Shown here one piece after another: positions 1,813 through 14,172 of a stretch of DNA of 14,241 bases (positions are counted from its first letter, which is position 1; the number at the start of each line of letters is the position of its first letter). The position numbers and the translations under genes are program-made. This DNA is from an uncultured Mycoplasmatota bacterium (GTDB taxonomy: Bacteria > Bacillota_I > Bacilli_A > RF39 > UBA660). The notes below the pieces were generated by a model. It saw only the letters and a list, made by a program, of their open reading frames with translations. It was not told the DNA's origin and did no database searches. Where the stretch lies: positions 1 to 14,241 of the forward strand of contig CAMLYN010000019.1 in the NCBI GenBank assembly GCA_946491675.1, given 5' to 3'.

Positions 1813-3564
1813 GTGAAAGTAAATAAATTCATACATTTATTATATGTTCCAACAATGGCTTGTAATATGGCTTGTAAATATTGTTATTTAGAAGATAATA
1901 CAAAAGATGAATATCATAAAATGAAAGCTCTTGATACTTTAAAATATACGATAGATAAGATGAAGAATTCCAATGTAATTCCATTTAATATATCTTTACA
2001 TGGTGGAGAAGTAACTACTTTATCACATGATGATTTTTATGATTTAATAAAATATATTAGTGATTACTATGAACAAAATAGAGAGGTTATTTTGAAAGCT
2101 GGTTTTAAAATAGGAAGACCACATATTAAGACAAATTTATATAGTATAGATAAACATATTGATATTATTAAAGAATTTAATGTTTCTATATCAGGAAGTT
2201 TAGATTTACCATTGTCACTTCATGATGAGTATAGAATAACTAAAGGAAATCAAAAAACTTTAGAGAAAATATTTAAAAATATAGAATTACTAGAAGATAT
2301 TCCTAATAAAAAGAAAGTATCTTCTACAGTTTTTAGAGAGCATTATAGTTATATTGATGAAATTATTGAGGATATAAAATATTTACATAAAAATACATGT
2401 TTAGATATGAATGATTTTAATTTTATGATTGGTTTTGATTATAATTCTAATGGTATTCTTCATCATATGAGTGAAGATGAACAAGTAGAATTTTATAAGA
2501 GAATGCATAAGGAATTTGATGGAACGGATTTGGATTATGGTGTAAATGGTCCTTGGTTTGATGAGTTTGGTCCAGGATATTGTTCTAACTGTGATAATTG
2601 TGGTGAAAAGTTTTTTTTATTAGAAAAAAATGGAGATATTTATTCCTGTGTTAGAGGACAAAAAAATCCTGATTATTATTATGGTAATATATATAATAAT
2701 AGTGTTGAAGAAATTATGAATACTGCATATAACAAAATATTTAAAAATCATAATAAGGAACCATTTAATGAGGAATGTAGAAAATGTGGTTATTTATATT
2801 TATGTAAAACGGGATGTCCATTTGTTAAGAATAATTATAAGTCAAATAAAAGTTATACTTGTAAATTACAACAGTTGATGTATCAAGATAGAAATTATTC
2901 AAAAGATGAATATAATGATGAGTTTGTTTATGAATATGTTACTAAGATGAGATTAGAGGATATTAGTAAATATATACCAACTAGAAGAAATGTAAATGAT
3001 TATCCATTACTTGAAGATATTATTAAATGTGATAAAAATTTAGAGTATATTTATGATGATAATTCATTTATTCTAAAAGTGGATAATCAATTATATAAGT
3101 TGGAATCTCAAATTATCAAGAAAACAAGGGATGTTGTTTATTTTACACCTAAATCAACGATAGTTATTTATATGAAGAAAAGTTTAATAAATGAAGTATG
3201 TGAATATCCTGAAAATAATTCTTTATATATTATGTTATTAACTGGTGATTTAGTTACGTATGGTGATGAAAATAGAACAAAACAAAGGCATATTTGTACG
3301 CATCAAATTTATAAGGGAGTGCTAGATAATATAAAATCAGATAAAGAAGGATTTTATAAATATGATATTTCTAATCTTATTAAAGAATATAAATATATGT
3401 ATTCTAATGAAAATTATAATAATTTATTTTTTACTACTTCTGCTTTAAGAGATTATCATTATGTGAAGCAAAAAAATAATGCATATTATCATATACAAGC
3501 TATTAATTTACCATTTCAAAATATTGAATTTTATTATATAGATAAGGAGTTAAATAATGAATAG
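1813..3564 (+). CDS. Radical SAM/SPASM protein, probable peptide or protein maturase
   Basis: The start is GTG, with GGGGGA (1801-1806) as ribosome site. The N-terminus has the radical SAM cluster motif C17-x3-C21-x2-C24, with GGE at 64-66 matching the SAM-binding region. A SPASM-type auxiliary cluster region follows, with cysteines at 257, 260, 263, 279, 322, 325, 331, 335 and 350; the C-x2-C-x5-C-x3-C spacing at 322-335 is typical. This architecture is that of anaerobic sulfatase-maturase and RiPP maturase enzymes, which use auxiliary clusters to modify a peptide. At 583 residues it is much longer than a usual SPASM maturase (roughly 370-450). Residues from about 405 look like an all-beta domain and do not belong to the radical SAM core. 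The stop overlaps the next gene by 8 bases. The substrate is not known; the adjacent 126-residue protein is the best candidate. The rSAM/SPASM call is firm, the maturase role is inferred. Confidence 0.9.
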   Translation: MKVNKFIHLLYVPTMACNMACKYCYLEDNTKDEYHKMKALDTLKYTIDKMKNSNVIPFNISLHGGEVTTLSHDDFYDLIKYISDYYEQNREVILKAGFKIGRPHIKTNLYSIDKHIDIIKEFNVSISGSLDLPLSLHDEYRITKGNQKTLEKIFKNIELLEDIPNKKKVSSTVFREHYSYIDEIIEDIKYLHKNTCLDMNDFNFMIGFDYNSNGILHHMSEDEQVEFYKRMHKEFDGTDLDYGVNGPWFDEFGPGYCSNCDNCGEKFFLLEKNGDIYSCVRGQKNPDYYYGNIYNNSVEEIMNTAYNKIFKNHNKEPFNEECRKCGYLYLCKTGCPFVKNNYKSNKSYTCKLQQLMYQDRNYSKDEYNDEFVYEYVTKMRLEDISKYIPTRRNVNDYPLLEDIIKCDKNLEYIYDDNSFILKVDNQLYKLESQIIKKTRDVVYFTPKSTIVIYMKKSLINEVCEYPENNSLYIMLLTGDLVTYGDENRTKQRHICTHQIYKGVLDNIKSDKEGFYKYDISNLIKEYKYMYSNENYNNLFFTTSALRDYHYVKQKNNAYYHIQAINLPFQNIEFYYIDKELNNE

Positions 3565-8381: not shown

Positions 8382-8434
8382 AAAATCTAAGTTATTTTGA
8401 GTTTGTGTTAAAATAAGAGGTAGGAGTGAGGATT

Positions 8435-9331
8435 ATGCAGAATTATTATATTGATCTTGGTTCATCGACAATTAAAGTATATTGTTATGAAGATACATTA
8501 AAACTTATAGAAGAACATTCTATTTATTTTAAAAATGACTTTGATAAGGAGAAAGGTATTAGTGAAAGTAATTTAAAAGAGTTATGTGATTATTTCGAAG
8601 AAATAAAGGTTAAATATGATTTAAAGTATTATAATACAAATATTTTTGTTACAGGTATATTTAGAAATTTAATACAGGAAAGAAAACAAGATTTAGTTAA
8701 GTTATTTAATGAAAAGTTTGATTTACATTTCAATATTATTAGTCATGGTATTGAAAATTATTATTTAGCCAAGGCTATGGAAAACGATTATAATAACCAG
8801 AAAGTCTTAATTATTAACATGGGTGGTAAAACTACTGAATTAGTAACTTTTGTTGGAGATAAAATAACTGATACAAAAAACTTAACTATTGGTGTTGCTG
8901 ATTTATTAAATAACTTTGATAAAGTTAATGATAAATATAGTGGTGATACTGTAGAAGAGATGGAAAAATTTGTTAGAGAAAAATTATCTAATATTGAATT
9001 AGATGAAGATTATGATTGTGCAATATTTACTGGTGGAGAAGAAAGATTTGAATTGTTAACTGGATTTAATTTAGTAGATAATACTTTATTTGACGATAAT
9101 ATTCATAAATATATGCTTAGTTTAGAAGATTATATTAAAGGTACTGAAAAGGTATTTTATGATATTTCTCTTGATGAATTATATGAGTTAATGCCTAATA
9201 ATCCTAAATGGATGGATGGTGCAAGAAGTGGTGCTATTATACCTTTAGTATTATTTAAAATTGCAAATGTAAAATGGATTATTCCGTCTGATTTAAATTT
9301 AATCAATGGTGTTATAAATGATTTAAAATAA
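8435..9331 (+). CDS. Ppx/GppA-like ASKHA-fold protein with altered phosphate loop
   Basis: A GTG at 8426 is in frame, but AGGAG (8422-8426) fits the ATG at 8435, giving 298 residues. The N-terminal YIDLGSST (residues 5-12) is the phosphate-1 motif of the acetate/sugar kinase, Hsp70 and actin fold. E107 in SHGIENYY matches the catalytic Glu of exopolyphosphatase and guanosine pentaphosphatase enzymes. The phosphate-2 motif, normally DIGGGSTE, reads NMGGKTTE (128-135): the Asp is Asn and GGGS is GGKT. TGGEERF (199-205) stands for the third glycine motif. Length matches the short two-domain Ppx/GppA form of about 300 residues. The changes suggest altered or lost polyphosphate or pppGpp hydrolysis, perhaps binding or regulation instead. 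Only 20 bases separate it from the PurA-like gene, so the two are probably co-translated and functionally linked. Confidence 0.82.
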   Translation: MQNYYIDLGSSTIKVYCYEDTLKLIEEHSIYFKNDFDKEKGISESNLKELCDYFEEIKVKYDLKYYNTNIFVTGIFRNLIQERKQDLVKLFNEKFDLHFNIISHGIENYYLAKAMENDYNNQKVLIINMGGKTTELVTFVGDKITDTKNLTIGVADLLNNFDKVNDKYSGDTVEEMEKFVREKLSNIELDEDYDCAIFTGGEERFELLTGFNLVDNTLFDDNIHKYMLSLEDYIKGTEKVFYDISLDELYELMPNNPKWMDGARSGAIIPLVLFKIANVKWIIPSDLNLINGVINDLK

Positions 9332-9351: not shown

Positions 9352-10719
9352 ATGGTTAAAAATGTTATATCAGTAATAGATGGAGAAGCTGGCAGTTGTG
9401 GTAAAGCTAAAGTTATTGGAGAAATAGCAACAGATAAATCTATTAATCTAGGCGCTTCTGTTACTAATTGCATGCCAAATGCAGGACACACTTTTGTAGA
9501 TGAAAATGGTAATGCTACTGTTTTTAGAAATATCCCTGTATCATCAGTTAATCCTAATACAGAGTTATTTATAGGTCCAGGGTCCGCTATTGATATGGAA
9601 GTATTTAAAAATGAATATGAACAAGTTAGTAAATATCTAGGAGATAGAAAAATTTATGTTCATGAAATGGTTCCTTTAATTGAAGAGCGACATAAACAAT
9701 ATGAAAGGAAATATATCAAGAGTGGTTCAACATTTAAAGGTTGTAATGCTGTTACTTGTGAGAAAATTCTTAAAGATAAAAAATTAGAGTTTTTTAAGAC
9801 CTTTAGAAATGCTATTGTTTGTTCAAATGATGAGTGGCATGAAAGATTATATGAACATCTTGAAAATCCTTTAGAATATGTAATATTAGAAGGTTCACAA
9901 GGTTGTGATTTAGATATTAATCATAGTGGACATTATCCTAATACCGTTTGTAGAGAAGTTTCTACTATGCAACTACTTGCAGATTCTGGAATTTCTGCAG
10001 AGAGATTATTACAAACAATTATGGTTATAAGGCCATTTCCAATAAGAATAAGTAATATAACTAAATTTGGTGAATATATTTATTCAGGTAATTATGGTAA
10101 AGGTGAAGAGTTAACTTGGACTCAAATTAATCTTGCATCAATGTATGGAAGTTATCCTTGCCGTGGTGATGTTGAATGTTTTCCTAATTATTTAAATATT
10201 AAAAGACTAAAGAAAATTATTAGTCATTGTCCGGAAGTGTGTTTAAAACAAGTCTTTGGAGATAATTATAAATCAAAGAATTTAGAGACTATAACATTAC
10301 TTCAAGCATTAGAATTAGAGCGATTAATGTATAAATCTAAGGGATTATCTGAATATGAAACAATGTTAATTGAACTTCCAATGGTGGATGGTGATTTTCC
10401 ACCTAATACTATATTTGATCAGTCTGAACAAACGACAGTAACAAAAATGGAGAGAAGAGTGTTTGATTTAGATATAAAAAAATTAAAAACAAATTGTCAA
10501 ATCAATACTCCATCTAGTTTATATTTAAATTTTTTTCAACATTTAGGATTAGATTTTAAAGGTGAATCTGGTAATTTTGAAGATTATTATTTTAATAGAT
10601 ATTTAAGAGAATACTTTGACTGGTTAGAAAGAGAAACAGGAGTTGAAATATCTGCTTTAGGAACTGGTGCTAAAAATGGAGAGAGAATTTTAAAAAAAAC
10701 ATTAGTTAAAAATATATAA
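9352..10719 (+). CDS. Divergent adenylosuccinate synthetase (PurA/PurZ) family protein
   Basis: AGGGGG (9341-9346) precedes the ATG. PurA joins aspartate to IMP using GTP. Family marks are NAGHTF with H46 (the catalytic acid His), GPGSAID (75-81), SGSTFKG (124-130, the nucleotide-phosphate loop), LEGSQGCDLDINH (179-191), RPFPIRI (227-232), TTVTKMERR (361-369, the aspartate-binding loop) and LGTGAKNGER (436-445, guanine end). The N-terminal loop, normally GDEGKGK with catalytic Asp, reads GSCGKAK: the Asp is S15, while K18 is kept. The motif style (GST loop, RPFPIR, TTVTK) is closer to archaeal PurA and phage PurZ than to ordinary bacterial PurA. Its 455 residues exceed both, because about 95 residues lie between WTQI (256-259) and EQTTVTK. 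The Asp-to-Ser change is what I recall for PurZ, which uses dGMP, so a substrate other than IMP is likely. Its true reaction is unproven. Confidence 0.85.
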   Translation: MVKNVISVIDGEAGSCGKAKVIGEIATDKSINLGASVTNCMPNAGHTFVDENGNATVFRNIPVSSVNPNTELFIGPGSAIDMEVFKNEYEQVSKYLGDRKIYVHEMVPLIEERHKQYERKYIKSGSTFKGCNAVTCEKILKDKKLEFFKTFRNAIVCSNDEWHERLYEHLENPLEYVILEGSQGCDLDINHSGHYPNTVCREVSTMQLLADSGISAERLLQTIMVIRPFPIRISNITKFGEYIYSGNYGKGEELTWTQINLASMYGSYPCRGDVECFPNYLNIKRLKKIISHCPEVCLKQVFGDNYKSKNLETITLLQALELERLMYKSKGLSEYETMLIELPMVDGDFPPNTIFDQSEQTTVTKMERRVFDLDIKKLKTNCQINTPSSLYLNFFQHLGLDFKGESGNFEDYYFNRYLREYFDWLERETGVEISALGTGAKNGERILKKTLVKNI

Positions 10720-10749: not shown

Positions 10750-11123
10750 TTGTTTTTGTAATTTCAAGTTCTACGGGGAAAAAAGAATTTAGTATTGATA
10801 CAATTTTTATCATGACAAATGAACCGGCAACATAACCAGATTTATCTAATCATATCAAAAAGTATGCAATTAAAAATAATATAAAAATTAAAATTGTATC
10901 TAATGCATTTGCAGCGATAAATACTTATAAAAAAATGTTAATAAATATCAATCCTCTTAAATGGAGAAAACTTGTAACAGAATTATTTACATTAAAAAAG
11001 CAACTTGAAAATATAGAAGATTTTAGTGTACCAATTATTGCTATGACACAAAATGAGTTATTAAGGTTATATTTTGCAAATGATATTAAAATTTTAAAAA
11101 AATTATGGAGAAAAAGCCACTAA
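10750..11123 (+). pseudogene. Decayed reading frame with in-frame TAA
   Basis: One frame stays coding-like from about 10750 to 11123 but is cut by TAA at 10833-10835. Before it lies SSTGKKEFSIDTIF, then an ATG at 10812 followed at once by EPAT and the stop. After it comes a 62-codon open piece from the ATG at 10935, which has no ribosome site. The product is Lys/Ile/Asn-rich, partly helical (KKQLENIEDF, NELLRLYF), and I recognise no family. The DNA near 10772-10788 resembles the repeat at 12421 and 14136 with a six- or seven-base deletion. I read it as the ruin of a gene about 120 codons long. A functional 62-residue protein from 10935 is possible but unlikely. Confidence 0.55.
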
Positions 11124-11702: not shown

Positions 11703-11731
11703 ATTTATGTATTTATTATTTGGAGGATTAT

Positions 11732-12295
11732 ATGAAAGATTCTATATTAACTATAATAAATCAATATTTACTACTTTTTCCGGAGGAAAAACAAAGGCAA
11801 GCAAAACTAGTAAATTTTTTAAATAATTTTGATGATAATGAAATAATAGATTGGAATAACTTTAATGGACATATAGTTGCAAGTGGCTTTGTTTATTCTA
11901 AGAATGATAAAAAGTTTTTGGTTATGTATCATAACGATATGAAAATGTATACCTATCCAGGCGGACACATTGATTTATGTGATGCTAATCCGTTAGTAGC
12001 TGCCATTAGAGAGGTAAAAGAAGAAACAGGATTAATGGATTTTGAAGAAGTTAATATAGCCAGAAATGAATTAGTTCCCGTCGATATAGATACGCATATT
12101 ATAAGTTATAACGAAAGATTGAATTTACCACAACATTATCATTTTGATTTTAGATATTTATTTATTATTGATAAAATATTAAATGTAAAAGTAGATGGAA
12201 CAGAACTATCTAATTATAAATGGATTAATATCGATGAATTAAGTTCTGATCCTAATTATGGAAAAATAGTAGAGAAGTTAAGGAGACTTTTATAA
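11732..12295 (+). CDS. Nudix hydrolase
   Basis: An in-frame TTG at 11720 is possible, but TTTGGAGGA (11719-11727) is the ribosome site for the ATG at 11732, giving 187 residues. The Nudix box spans about 78-101: GHIDLCD, seven residues, then REVKEETGL, where the REVKEETG core holds the metal-binding glutamates. The early Glu of the consensus (G-x5-E) is Asp here, a tolerated variation. YPGGH (76-80) is the usual strand before the box. Nudix enzymes hydrolyse nucleoside diphosphates linked to another group. The N-terminal 50 residues are helical and acidic, as in many Firmicute Nudix proteins of this size. The substrate cannot be told. The gene has its own promoter and lies between decayed frames. 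Any link to the PurA-like operon is only by proximity. Confidence 0.9.
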   Translation: MKDSILTIINQYLLLFPEEKQRQAKLVNFLNNFDDNEIIDWNNFNGHIVASGFVYSKNDKKFLVMYHNDMKMYTYPGGHIDLCDANPLVAAIREVKEETGLMDFEEVNIARNELVPVDIDTHIISYNERLNLPQHYHFDFRYLFIIDKILNVKVDGTELSNYKWINIDELSSDPNYGKIVEKLRRLL

Positions 12296-12405: not shown

Positions 12406-12491
12406 TTGTATTTTTAGCTTTACGGGAGATATAAAAAAAGAACTAGTTGTTGTTCTTGTATTTATATATGAAGTGATTATGTTATAGTTTA
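12406..12491 (+). pseudogene. C-terminal remnant of a small family gene
   Basis: Read from about 12406, the frame gives FTGDIKKELVVV and runs on to a TAG near 12491. The frame ending at 14172 finishes TTGDIKKEPVVD and a stop. The DNA is a near-exact copy there (12421-12452 with 14136-14167, 30 of 32 identical). Nothing upstream in this frame continues the protein: TAG and TAA lie just before. I therefore read this as a leftover 3' end with the stop lost. The segment AAGAAC/GTTCTT here also resembles a decayed terminator stem. Confidence 0.5.
12421..12452 (+). repeat. Direct repeat, copy 1
   Basis: It matches 14136-14167 at 30 of 32 positions, with the first 23 bases identical (beginning TACGGGAGATATAAAA). 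The spacing is about 1.7 kb, with the intact membrane-protein gene between the copies. A shorter, degenerate match with a small deletion starts near 10772. Confidence 0.85.
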
Positions 12492-12615: not shown

Positions 12616-13641
12616 GTGGTAATATTTATTTATTTTTTATTGTTTTTTAGTGTTGAAATATTACTATTTGTGAAGTCACTTAAAACAAAAAATACAAAAT
12701 ATTGGAAAATATTGATACTGGTAGAATTTTTATCAATTATTAGTATTATTCTATTAATATTATTATCATCAGTAATTTTTGCAAATAAAGAATTTGGACT
12801 ACAAACATTAGAATTATTGCATTATAATTATATAGCAATTATAATGTATATAGTATTTGCAATCATTTCAGGTATTATATTAAGTATTATTTATTTCAAA
12901 AAAAGATTAGCAATTGTTAGAGGTATTTTAGGGTTTAAAAAAGCATTCATATATTTTGTTGCTGTTTTTGTAATTTTGCTAATGGTTGTTTTAGGCCAGC
13001 AAAAACTATATAAACATAACGTTGAAAATTTAAAAGAAGAAAGTAATACTTCTTATTTATTAATGCGCTTTGCATACAGAGGAATTGAAAATTTATTTCA
13101 TGATGAATATGAATACTATTTAATAAAAAACAATAAAACTTGTTTTGTTTTTACCTCAAATCAAATTAGTTATTACTTTAATCAAAATTTGAATGACTTA
13201 AGTATTTATGAAGATAAAAATACCAATTATTATTTTGTAGATTTACGTTATTCTCCTGATGGAAATTTTGGTATAAAGAATAATGATCAGTATATTAATG
13301 TATCTATAGGAGATAAATACAAATTATTTTATTCAAATTGGACAAATAATTCAATTACTTTATCTAAAAATGATAAAAATGTTATGAAAAAAATAGTGGA
13401 ACAATTGCATGATGGATATATAGAAAATTATACTTCAAATGGTGTAAAAGGTAGTTCTAAAACATTAGTATCTTTTATGTTGATTAAGAATAATAAATTT
13501 GATTATTATATTGTAGAAAAAGATGATAAAGAATTATTTGTATTTAAAAATGATAAGTTAACTAAATTAATTGATATACCTAATAATGGTGATTTTGATT
13601 ATTTTTATTTTATAGATAACCAATTAGAGATAGTAAATTAA
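12616..13641 (+). CDS. Four-helix membrane protein with a soluble C-terminal domain, unknown function
   Basis: AGGAGAGG (12601-12608) lies 7 bases before a GTG start. The 341-residue product has four hydrophobic helices at about 2-19, 32-56, 72-94 and 110-127, then a soluble domain of about 210 residues. That domain is rich in Asn, Tyr and Lys and strand-like (YEYYLIKNNKTCFVF, KYKLFYSNW, KFDYYIVEKD). An even helix number puts the N-terminus and the soluble domain on the same side of the membrane. Lys and Arg in the 95-110 linker suit a cytoplasmic loop between helices 3 and 4, which would place the C-terminal domain outside. I recognise no family. The gene is intact between two decayed copies of the small-gene repeat and has its own -10. 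No clear terminator follows the stop. Confidence 0.75.
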   Translation: MVIFIYFLLFFSVEILLFVKSLKTKNTKYWKILILVEFLSIISIILLILLSSVIFANKEFGLQTLELLHYNYIAIIMYIVFAIISGIILSIIYFKKRLAIVRGILGFKKAFIYFVAVFVILLMVVLGQQKLYKHNVENLKEESNTSYLLMRFAYRGIENLFHDEYEYYLIKNNKTCFVFTSNQISYYFNQNLNDLSIYEDKNTNYYFVDLRYSPDGNFGIKNNDQYINVSIGDKYKLFYSNWTNNSITLSKNDKNVMKKIVEQLHDGYIENYTSNGVKGSSKTLVSFMLIKNNKFDYYIVEKDDKELFVFKNDKLTKLIDIPNNGDFDYFYFIDNQLEIVN

Positions 13642-13869: not shown

Positions 13870-14172
13870 ATGAACAAAGAAATTAAATCTGAATATGAGG
13901 TTGATGTTATTATATATGATATTGTTGAAGATTTTATTTGAATAACGAAAGAAGAATTTGCATCATTGTATATATCTTTATTAACATTACAATCTATGTT
14001 ACATAATCTTAATTATAATCCTAGGTATGAGATTTGTAGAAATCTAGTTCAAGTAAAATGGTATAATATTTCAGATAATATTATAGAAGTAATGGTTTTT
14101 TATAGAAATAGGAGACTGTTTTCTTCCAAGTTGACTACGGGAGATATAAAAAAAGAACCAGTCGTTGACTAG
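13870..14172 (+). pseudogene. Small family gene interrupted by TGA
   Basis: An ATG at 13870 opens 23 codons (MNKEIKSEYEVDV and so on) that end in TGA at 13939-13941. The same frame continues without a break to TAG at 14170-14172, with ITKEEFASLYISLLTL directly after the stop. The joined product would be about 100 residues; a 68-residue piece from the ATG at 13966 is the longest open part. The central YEICRNL and VMVFYRNRRLFSS match the frame at 11280-11474, and the end TTGDIKKEPVVD matches the remnant at 12421. There is no ribosome site at 13870 or 13966. A TGG-to-TGA change is the simplest cause of the stop. Function unknown. Confidence 0.55.
14136..14167 (+). repeat. Direct repeat, copy 2
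   Basis: This is the partner of 12421-12452 (30 of 32 identical). It encodes the C-terminus of the interrupted frame at 13870 and runs into the terminator-like stem that follows. Confidence 0.85.

Follow-up and report, generated by a model that had tools for sequence, protein, structure and literature searches.

The synthetase gene and its active-site residues

The window, by which we mean the whole stretch of 14,241 nucleotides analysed here, carries at positions 9352-10719 an open reading frame with an AGGGGGA ribosome-binding site, which starts 20 nt past the end of the open reading frame before it. PF00709 was the sole match when the encoded protein was scanned with Pfam. The two genes and the features of the second are as follows.

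8426..9331, + strand: Ppx/GppA-family partner, 301 aa, 20 nt upstream of the PurZ-like gene (Pfam, Foldseek)
9352..10719, + strand: PurZ-like (Ser-type) enzyme of the adenylosuccinate synthetase family, long form, 455 aa (profile, residues, tree)
9388..9411, + strand: nucleotide-binding/catalytic loop AGSCGKAK, residues 13-20, with the Ser15 codon at 9394-9396 (alignment)
9478..9492, + strand: NAGHT motif, residues 43-47, including His46 (alignment)
9772..9774, + strand: Lys141, counterpart of S-2L R146 (alignment; PMC8342488)
9934..9954, + strand: YPNTVCR, residues 195-201, with Val199 in place of the pocket Thr (alignment, model)
10045..10050, + strand: Arg232-Ile233, with Ile at the 2'-OH gate where S-2L PurZ has Val241 (alignment; PMC8342488)
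10186..10392, + strand: core of the long-form insertion, residues 279-347 (alignment, structure model)
10432..10446, + strand: aspartate loop TTVTK, residues 361-365 (alignment)
10528..10539, + strand: NFFQ, residues 393-396, counterpart of S-2L N305/F306/Q308 (alignment; PMC8342488)

An earlier, sequence-only reading of this DNA had reported a catalytic Asp replaced by Ser, with the NAGHT His, the loop Lys and the aspartate loop retained, and the alignments bear this out. The hallmark Asp of the bacterial PurA loop GDEGKGK is absent; the loop reads GSCGKAK, with Ser15 at the catalytic position, where PurZ enzymes have Ser or Gly, and Ser occurs there in 135/135 of the listed long-form relatives (the 120 listed from 1223 matches and a further 15 loci, some of which may be among those 120). 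The loop Lys (K18), the NAGHT His (His46) and the TTVTK loop are all kept. The residues of S-2L PurZ named in PMC8342488 were mapped onto one alignment with the window protein. Besides the long forms, the residue alignment held short forms (five of the window's branch and 117 of 120 listed, three having no readable loop), 119 relatives of the PurZ of Bacillus phage vB_BpsS-140, four phage PurZ/PurZ0 sequences and, on the PurA side, seven canonical PurA of the same GTDB family; Ser15 is fixed across all the Ser-type sets.

At Ser15, S126, T361, F394 and Q396 the window protein has the S-2L PurZ residues, where the canonical PurA of the family have D, T, G, H and D, respectively. T361 and Q396 correspond to T273 and Q308, which are named as PurZ-specific substrate contacts in S-2L (PMC8342488). 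The remaining mapped pocket and aspartate-loop residues are also kept, except A13 (Tyr21 in S-2L PurZ), K141, N197/T198/V199, I233 and A440. In S-2L PurZ, R146 and the phosphate of the nucleotide are ion-paired across the dimer, and N305/F306/Q308 make contacts to the adenine base of the phosphate donor (PMC8342488). Position 141 is Arg in 90 and Lys in 45 of the 135 listed long forms, while position 199 holds the pocket Thr in 118 and Val in 17; the Val199 carriers (P0001-P0017) are the closest relatives of the window protein among the matches listed, and residues 195-201 of the model have low confidence (pLDDT 57-65). Since the window clade has both K141 and V199 in the nucleotide-phosphate site, its substrate may differ. 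A further difference from S-2L PurZ is the insertion around residues 279-347, mostly helical in the model (pLDDT about 89-95) and without counterpart in the compared phage PurZ and short forms. In one relative (G153) the loop has its Asp restored, together with NADHS and an altered aspartate loop.

These residues suggest certain preferences. Ile233, present at the 2'-OH gate in 135/135 listed long forms, suggests a deoxynucleotide substrate, and Ser at position 15 would leave room for a 2-amino group. Q396 suggests ATP or dATP as donor rather than GTP, a prediction that takes ATP as the donor of PurZ from PMC8342488 and the introduction of PMC12884076; one section of the latter, seemingly in conflict, gives ATP as the preference of PurZ0 and GTP as that of PurZ.

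Residues, profile ranking and phylogeny agree on a PurZ-type protein and not a PurA, as the sequence-only reading had proposed with phylogeny as its check. Among NCBIfam models, PurZ (NF038379) ranks first at 169 bits, followed by archaeal-type PurA at 124 and bacterial PurA at 74 and less (73.9 bits for TIGR00184, below its cut-off of 395.6). Because 169 bits lies under the curated PurZ cut-off of 300, we call the protein PurZ-like rather than PurZ. In PHROGs the protein matched the phage PurZ family and, weakly, one other entry, and the closest PDB sequences are the PurZ of cyanophage S-2L and of phiVC8 (7odx, 6fm1), at 27-31% identity. In the tree, the Ser clade has a support of 100 and the grouping of the window protein with PurZ a UFBoot value of 96; the AU test rejected its grouping with bacterial PurA (p=0.00016) and with archaeal PurA (p=0.00008), the archaeal enzymes being represented by one sequence only. 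When active-site columns were removed, window plus PurZ stood at 98, the value for a single Ser clade with PurZ0 in it dropped to 30, and that for the group of window, Nudix-fused relatives and vB_BpsS-140 dropped to 67. PurZ0 of actinophages (7vf6) lies on a separate branch, and its donor-base site is made up of Thr, Met and Asp, unlike the NFFQ of the window protein. The archaeal-type PurA of P. horikoshii (5k7x) likewise differs: its loop has the Asp, T361 is replaced by Gly, and the donor-base site holds Met and Asp.

The Ppx/GppA-family partner and other linked domains

The upstream protein passes the Ppx/GppA Pfam cut-off (35.1 vs 27 bits), and a Foldseek search with its model placed Ppx/GppA structures on top, 1t6c first (E=1.6e-20). 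It shares the fold of the Ppx/GppA phosphatases 1t6c and 6pc1, but is a single 301-aa form with about 18-21% identity to them, and the GGGSTE motif of the Aquifex enzyme reads GGKTTE; its catalytic activity is putative. A Ppx-like gene lies directly upstream of the PurZ-like gene, on the same strand and 14-24 nt away, in 31 of the 57 loci whose upstream sequence reaches 800 nt or more, where L001, on the same contig as L002 but on the other strand, was scored as a miss. A close Ppx-like copy (67% identity or more; partial in G188) was found in 13/24 genomes with the PurZ-like gene and in 0/36 others, of which 12 have a canonical PurA and 24 were picked from those without a PurA-family match (Fisher p=4.8e-7). 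Four of the 13 (G175, G171, G162, G043) have the two genes on separate contigs, and 11/24 carriers are without a close copy. More distant Ppx-like relatives (about 25-36%) occur among carriers and comparison genomes alike. The pairing does not track the K141/V199 change, since 21 of the 28 intact PurZ-like proteins with a Ppx-like gene upstream keep Arg141/Thr199, the others having Lys/Val (six) or Lys/Thr (one).

A second association was seen in shorter relatives. When an insertion-less protein (from G213) was used as query, 30 of the 120 relatives listed, out of 1080 matches, had a fused N-terminal Nudix domain, mostly MTH1-like (29 by listed Pfam domains, plus the truncated P0209). The Nudix domain of P0203 (residues 5-151) matches MTH1-type entries, with a best E value of 5e-34, and NGxGG and PDDxYW are kept in 19 of the 28 fused domains with a clear Nudix box; P0150, which represents 206 sequences, has another Nudix type. 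The fusions, annotated for example as "adenylosuccinate synthetase 2 [Clostridium sp. CAG:440]" (P0150), are Ser-type and belong to the same larger clade as the window protein, but are without the long insertion and have the N-terminal Nudix domain with no Ppx/GppA neighbour. Recurrent fusions of about 510 aa are seen in P0150, P0168, P0203 and others. In G171 and G213, insertion-less relatives directly adjoin a Nudix-like gene, with matches below family cut-offs, and a GNAT domain is fused to the Ser-type synthetase in two of the 120 listed relatives (P0141, P0198). In G008, a canonical PurA with Asp directly follows a gene in which a Nudix box can be read by eye.

Other candidates for association were discarded. 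The NUDIX gene at 11720-12295, 1 kb downstream of the PurZ-like gene, belongs to a cluster present in only 3/62 sources and variously placed (downstream in the window, on both sides in L046, upstream in L053), and the match with the near-identical L002 ends at 10768. Comparison of neighbour clusters across the 62 sources gave small shared groups and no widely recurrent third gene. Neither the synthetase nor its partner matched a PADLOC model of known anti-phage systems, so that a defence label was dropped, and RelA/SpoT, present in 59/60 genomes, was uninformative as a discriminator.

Carriers and their purine genes

The PurZ-like gene was found in 24 of the 243 genomes of the nearest genome's GTDB family; 34 matched, and ten weak matches were canonical PurA and were left out. 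A phylum-wide sample of 392 genomes contained a single carrier (G001) at E<=1e-30. The sixty loci from genome contigs are all MAG records, with titles mostly of Bacilli, Tenericutes or Firmicutes. Over ten comparisons with relatives, dN/dS was 0.10-0.20, and the gene is thus under purifying selection. At least six of the 24 copies are fragmentary or interrupted (G027, G072, G099, G151, G162, G188), which makes the gene dispensable and accessory. In G188, a single reading frame (L079) has a beginning that resembles the Ppx-like protein and an end that resembles the C-terminal portion of the PurZ-like one, an apparent deletion remnant of the pair.

As the sequence-only reading had it, this is a bacterial copy, lying in bacterial contigs without recognised phage genes. 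Its statement that the window holds no DatZ or MazZ partner also stands for the 10/11 open reading frames scanned with Pfam, among which no DutZ, DpoZ/Z polymerase or phage structural gene was found either. Viral contigs scanned with the window protein and with P0203 gave three matching stretches each, none confirmed as a relative.

The carriers are drafts, MAGs or similar, 22 of them 84-95% complete (G001 77%, G043 71%). No match to PurB (TIGR00928) or Lyase_1 (PF00206) was obtained in 24/24 carriers, a set that does not include the window's own assembly, whereas 14/14 control genomes matched both. Across the 60 genomes, TIGR00928 was over cut-off in four, all with canonical PurA, and matched below cut-off in G058; PF00206 was found in the same five. 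IMP dehydrogenase was over cut-off in 0/60 genomes, with weak partial matches in 36, against 11/14 controls over cut-off. Hence the carriers appear to be without the known steps from IMP to AMP and GMP, which makes a housekeeping AMP role, or completion of Z synthesis by the known route, unlikely. Eight of the 12 canonical-PurA genomes (G007, G008, G013, G081, G087, G104, G184, G197) also gave no PurB or Lyase_1 match, so either orphan synthetases are a more general feature of this family or its lyase goes unrecognised.

Proposed function and its alternatives

PurZ is the phage enzyme that starts the conversion of guanine to 2-aminoadenine, with the lyase, PurB, borrowed from the host. Compared with these phage systems, the window gene has a Ppx/GppA neighbour, no DatZ or MazZ was found beside it, and its carriers show no PurB match. 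The computations establish the enzyme class, the selection, the partnership and the lack of a detected lyase; substrate, donor, partner activity and role we infer as follows. We think it somewhat probable that this is a PurZ-type synthetase acting on a 2-aminopurine nucleotide, with a Ppx/GppA-family partner, the succinyl adduct as final product and an accessory role. The enzyme would phosphorylate O6 of the nucleotide, most likely dGMP and possibly GMP, with ATP or dATP, after which the amino group of aspartate would displace the phosphorylated O6 and yield N6-succinyl-2-amino(deoxy)adenylate. The neighbour may supply or govern the guanine nucleotide, a part that the Nudix domain may take in the shorter relatives, as MazZ or DutZ do in Z-phages; by that analogy, a phosphohydrolase could yield the purine monophosphate for a Ser-type synthetase. 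The adduct may be the end product, given that the hosts show no PurB-type lyase, or may be passed to some other enzyme. Guanine-nucleotide trapping, pool control or phage defence would be likelier roles than AMP synthesis or Z-DNA.

That the protein is a housekeeping adenylosuccinate synthetase, making AMP from IMP and drifted at its catalytic loop, is very unlikely, given the residues, the tree tests and the missing PurB and IMP dehydrogenase. Each of the seven carriers sampled for PF00709 shows one such gene and no second, which the sequence-only reading would have taken as the mark of a housekeeping copy. Yet this argument fails, because 84 of 98 genomes of this bacterial family are without any PF00709 match, PurB and Lyase_1 are matched in none of the 24 carriers, and IMP dehydrogenase is over cut-off in none of the 60 genomes. 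Moreover, PurA reportedly cannot do without its Asp13 (PMC12884076), Ser is fixed in the PurZ-like family, and both PurA groupings are rejected. A remnant or cargo of a Z-phage, making dZTP precursors for 2-aminoadenine DNA, has little more to recommend it: the window protein does stand beside phage PurZ in the tree, and its nearest annotated phage match is vB_BpsS-140 (33% identity over 57% of the query), but the viral-contig scans, the Pfam results for the window and the lack of a lyase match in the carriers all speak against it.

Damaged guanine nucleotides, for instance 8-oxo-dGMP released by an MTH1-like Nudix enzyme, might alternatively be tagged with aspartate and so barred from DNA. 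The MTH1-type profile of P0203, the conserved NGxGG and PDDxYW motifs and the space that Ser would leave for a 2-amino group are consistent with such sanitation. MTH1-type enzymes also act on other purines, however, and the window copy adjoins Ppx/GppA, with the rarely recurring NUDIX gene 1 kb away, so we consider this distinctly doubtful. Somewhat less doubtful, though still unlikely, is that the window clade (K141, V199, N197/T198) has the same fold and acts on a different purine derivative, possibly a guanosine polyphosphate. The Val199 and Lys141 subsets of the long forms, the fold of the partner and the near-universal RelA/SpoT would fit, but three quarters of the partnered intact copies (21/28) retain Arg141 and Thr199.

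Returning to the 2-aminopurine synthetase that we favour, a broader version is possible, though unlikely: a two-component system of gut bacteria, in which a Ppx/GppA-like or Nudix phosphohydrolase and a Ser-type synthetase would make an N6-succinyl-2-aminopurine nucleotide as final product, serving as antimetabolite, alarm or anti-phage signal. If true, phage PurZ and a cellular system with no part in Z-DNA synthesis would have a common origin. A conserved bacterial branch whose partner recurs and whose carriers show no lyase match would imply a cellular use of 2-aminopurine ligation unrelated to Z-DNA, and the chromosomal PurZ relative of these uncultured gut bacteria may make an unusual purine nucleotide. 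The branch also bears on the origin of PurZ, a group that in PMC12884076 comprises 147 phage and four archaeal sequences. New here are the recurrent Ppx/GppA neighbour, the Nudix fusions and the carriers without a lyase match, none of which the sequence-only reading had anticipated. In the open literature, with subscription papers mostly outside its scope, no title concerned a PurZ of bacteria paired with Nudix or Ppx/GppA and no paper treated PurZ together with exopolyphosphatase; titles on adenylosuccinate synthetase, GppA and operon concern (p)ppGpp.

Twelve plasmid records match, and among the matches listed all are rhizobial and about 28-30% identical. Ser-type PurA homologues with GSEGKG lie on plasmids of Sinorhizobium medicae (L124:4986-7048) and Agrobacterium rubi (L125:1490-5747). 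In one case the rhizobial gene overlaps the start of a following gene whose match is weakly dCTP-deaminase-like; in the other, the protein begins with a P-loop stretch (weak AAA_18 match) and a dCTP-deaminase/dUTPase-like gene is found two genes away. Such neighbours recall the dUTPase-like DutZ, which PurZ0 phages carry (PMC12884076), and a plasmid-borne Z-type pathway is possible.

Elsewhere in the window, no tRNA and no Rfam match at gathering threshold were found. L002 is 98.8% identical to the window over 10.6 kb, the identity ending at 10768, 49 nt past the PurZ-like gene; beyond the break it has a 678-aa open reading frame in place of the window's sequence. A putative mobilisation relaxase gene, recognised by eye, is shared by L002, L012, L015 and L061. 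Positions 1813-3564 encode a radical SAM/SPASM protein that is over cut-off for the SPASM domain model; maturases of sulfatases and peptides lead its NCBIfam matches, all under their cut-offs. Finally, a 32-nt direct repeat, 94% identical, at 12421-12452 and 14136-14167 flanks an open reading frame at 12616-13641.
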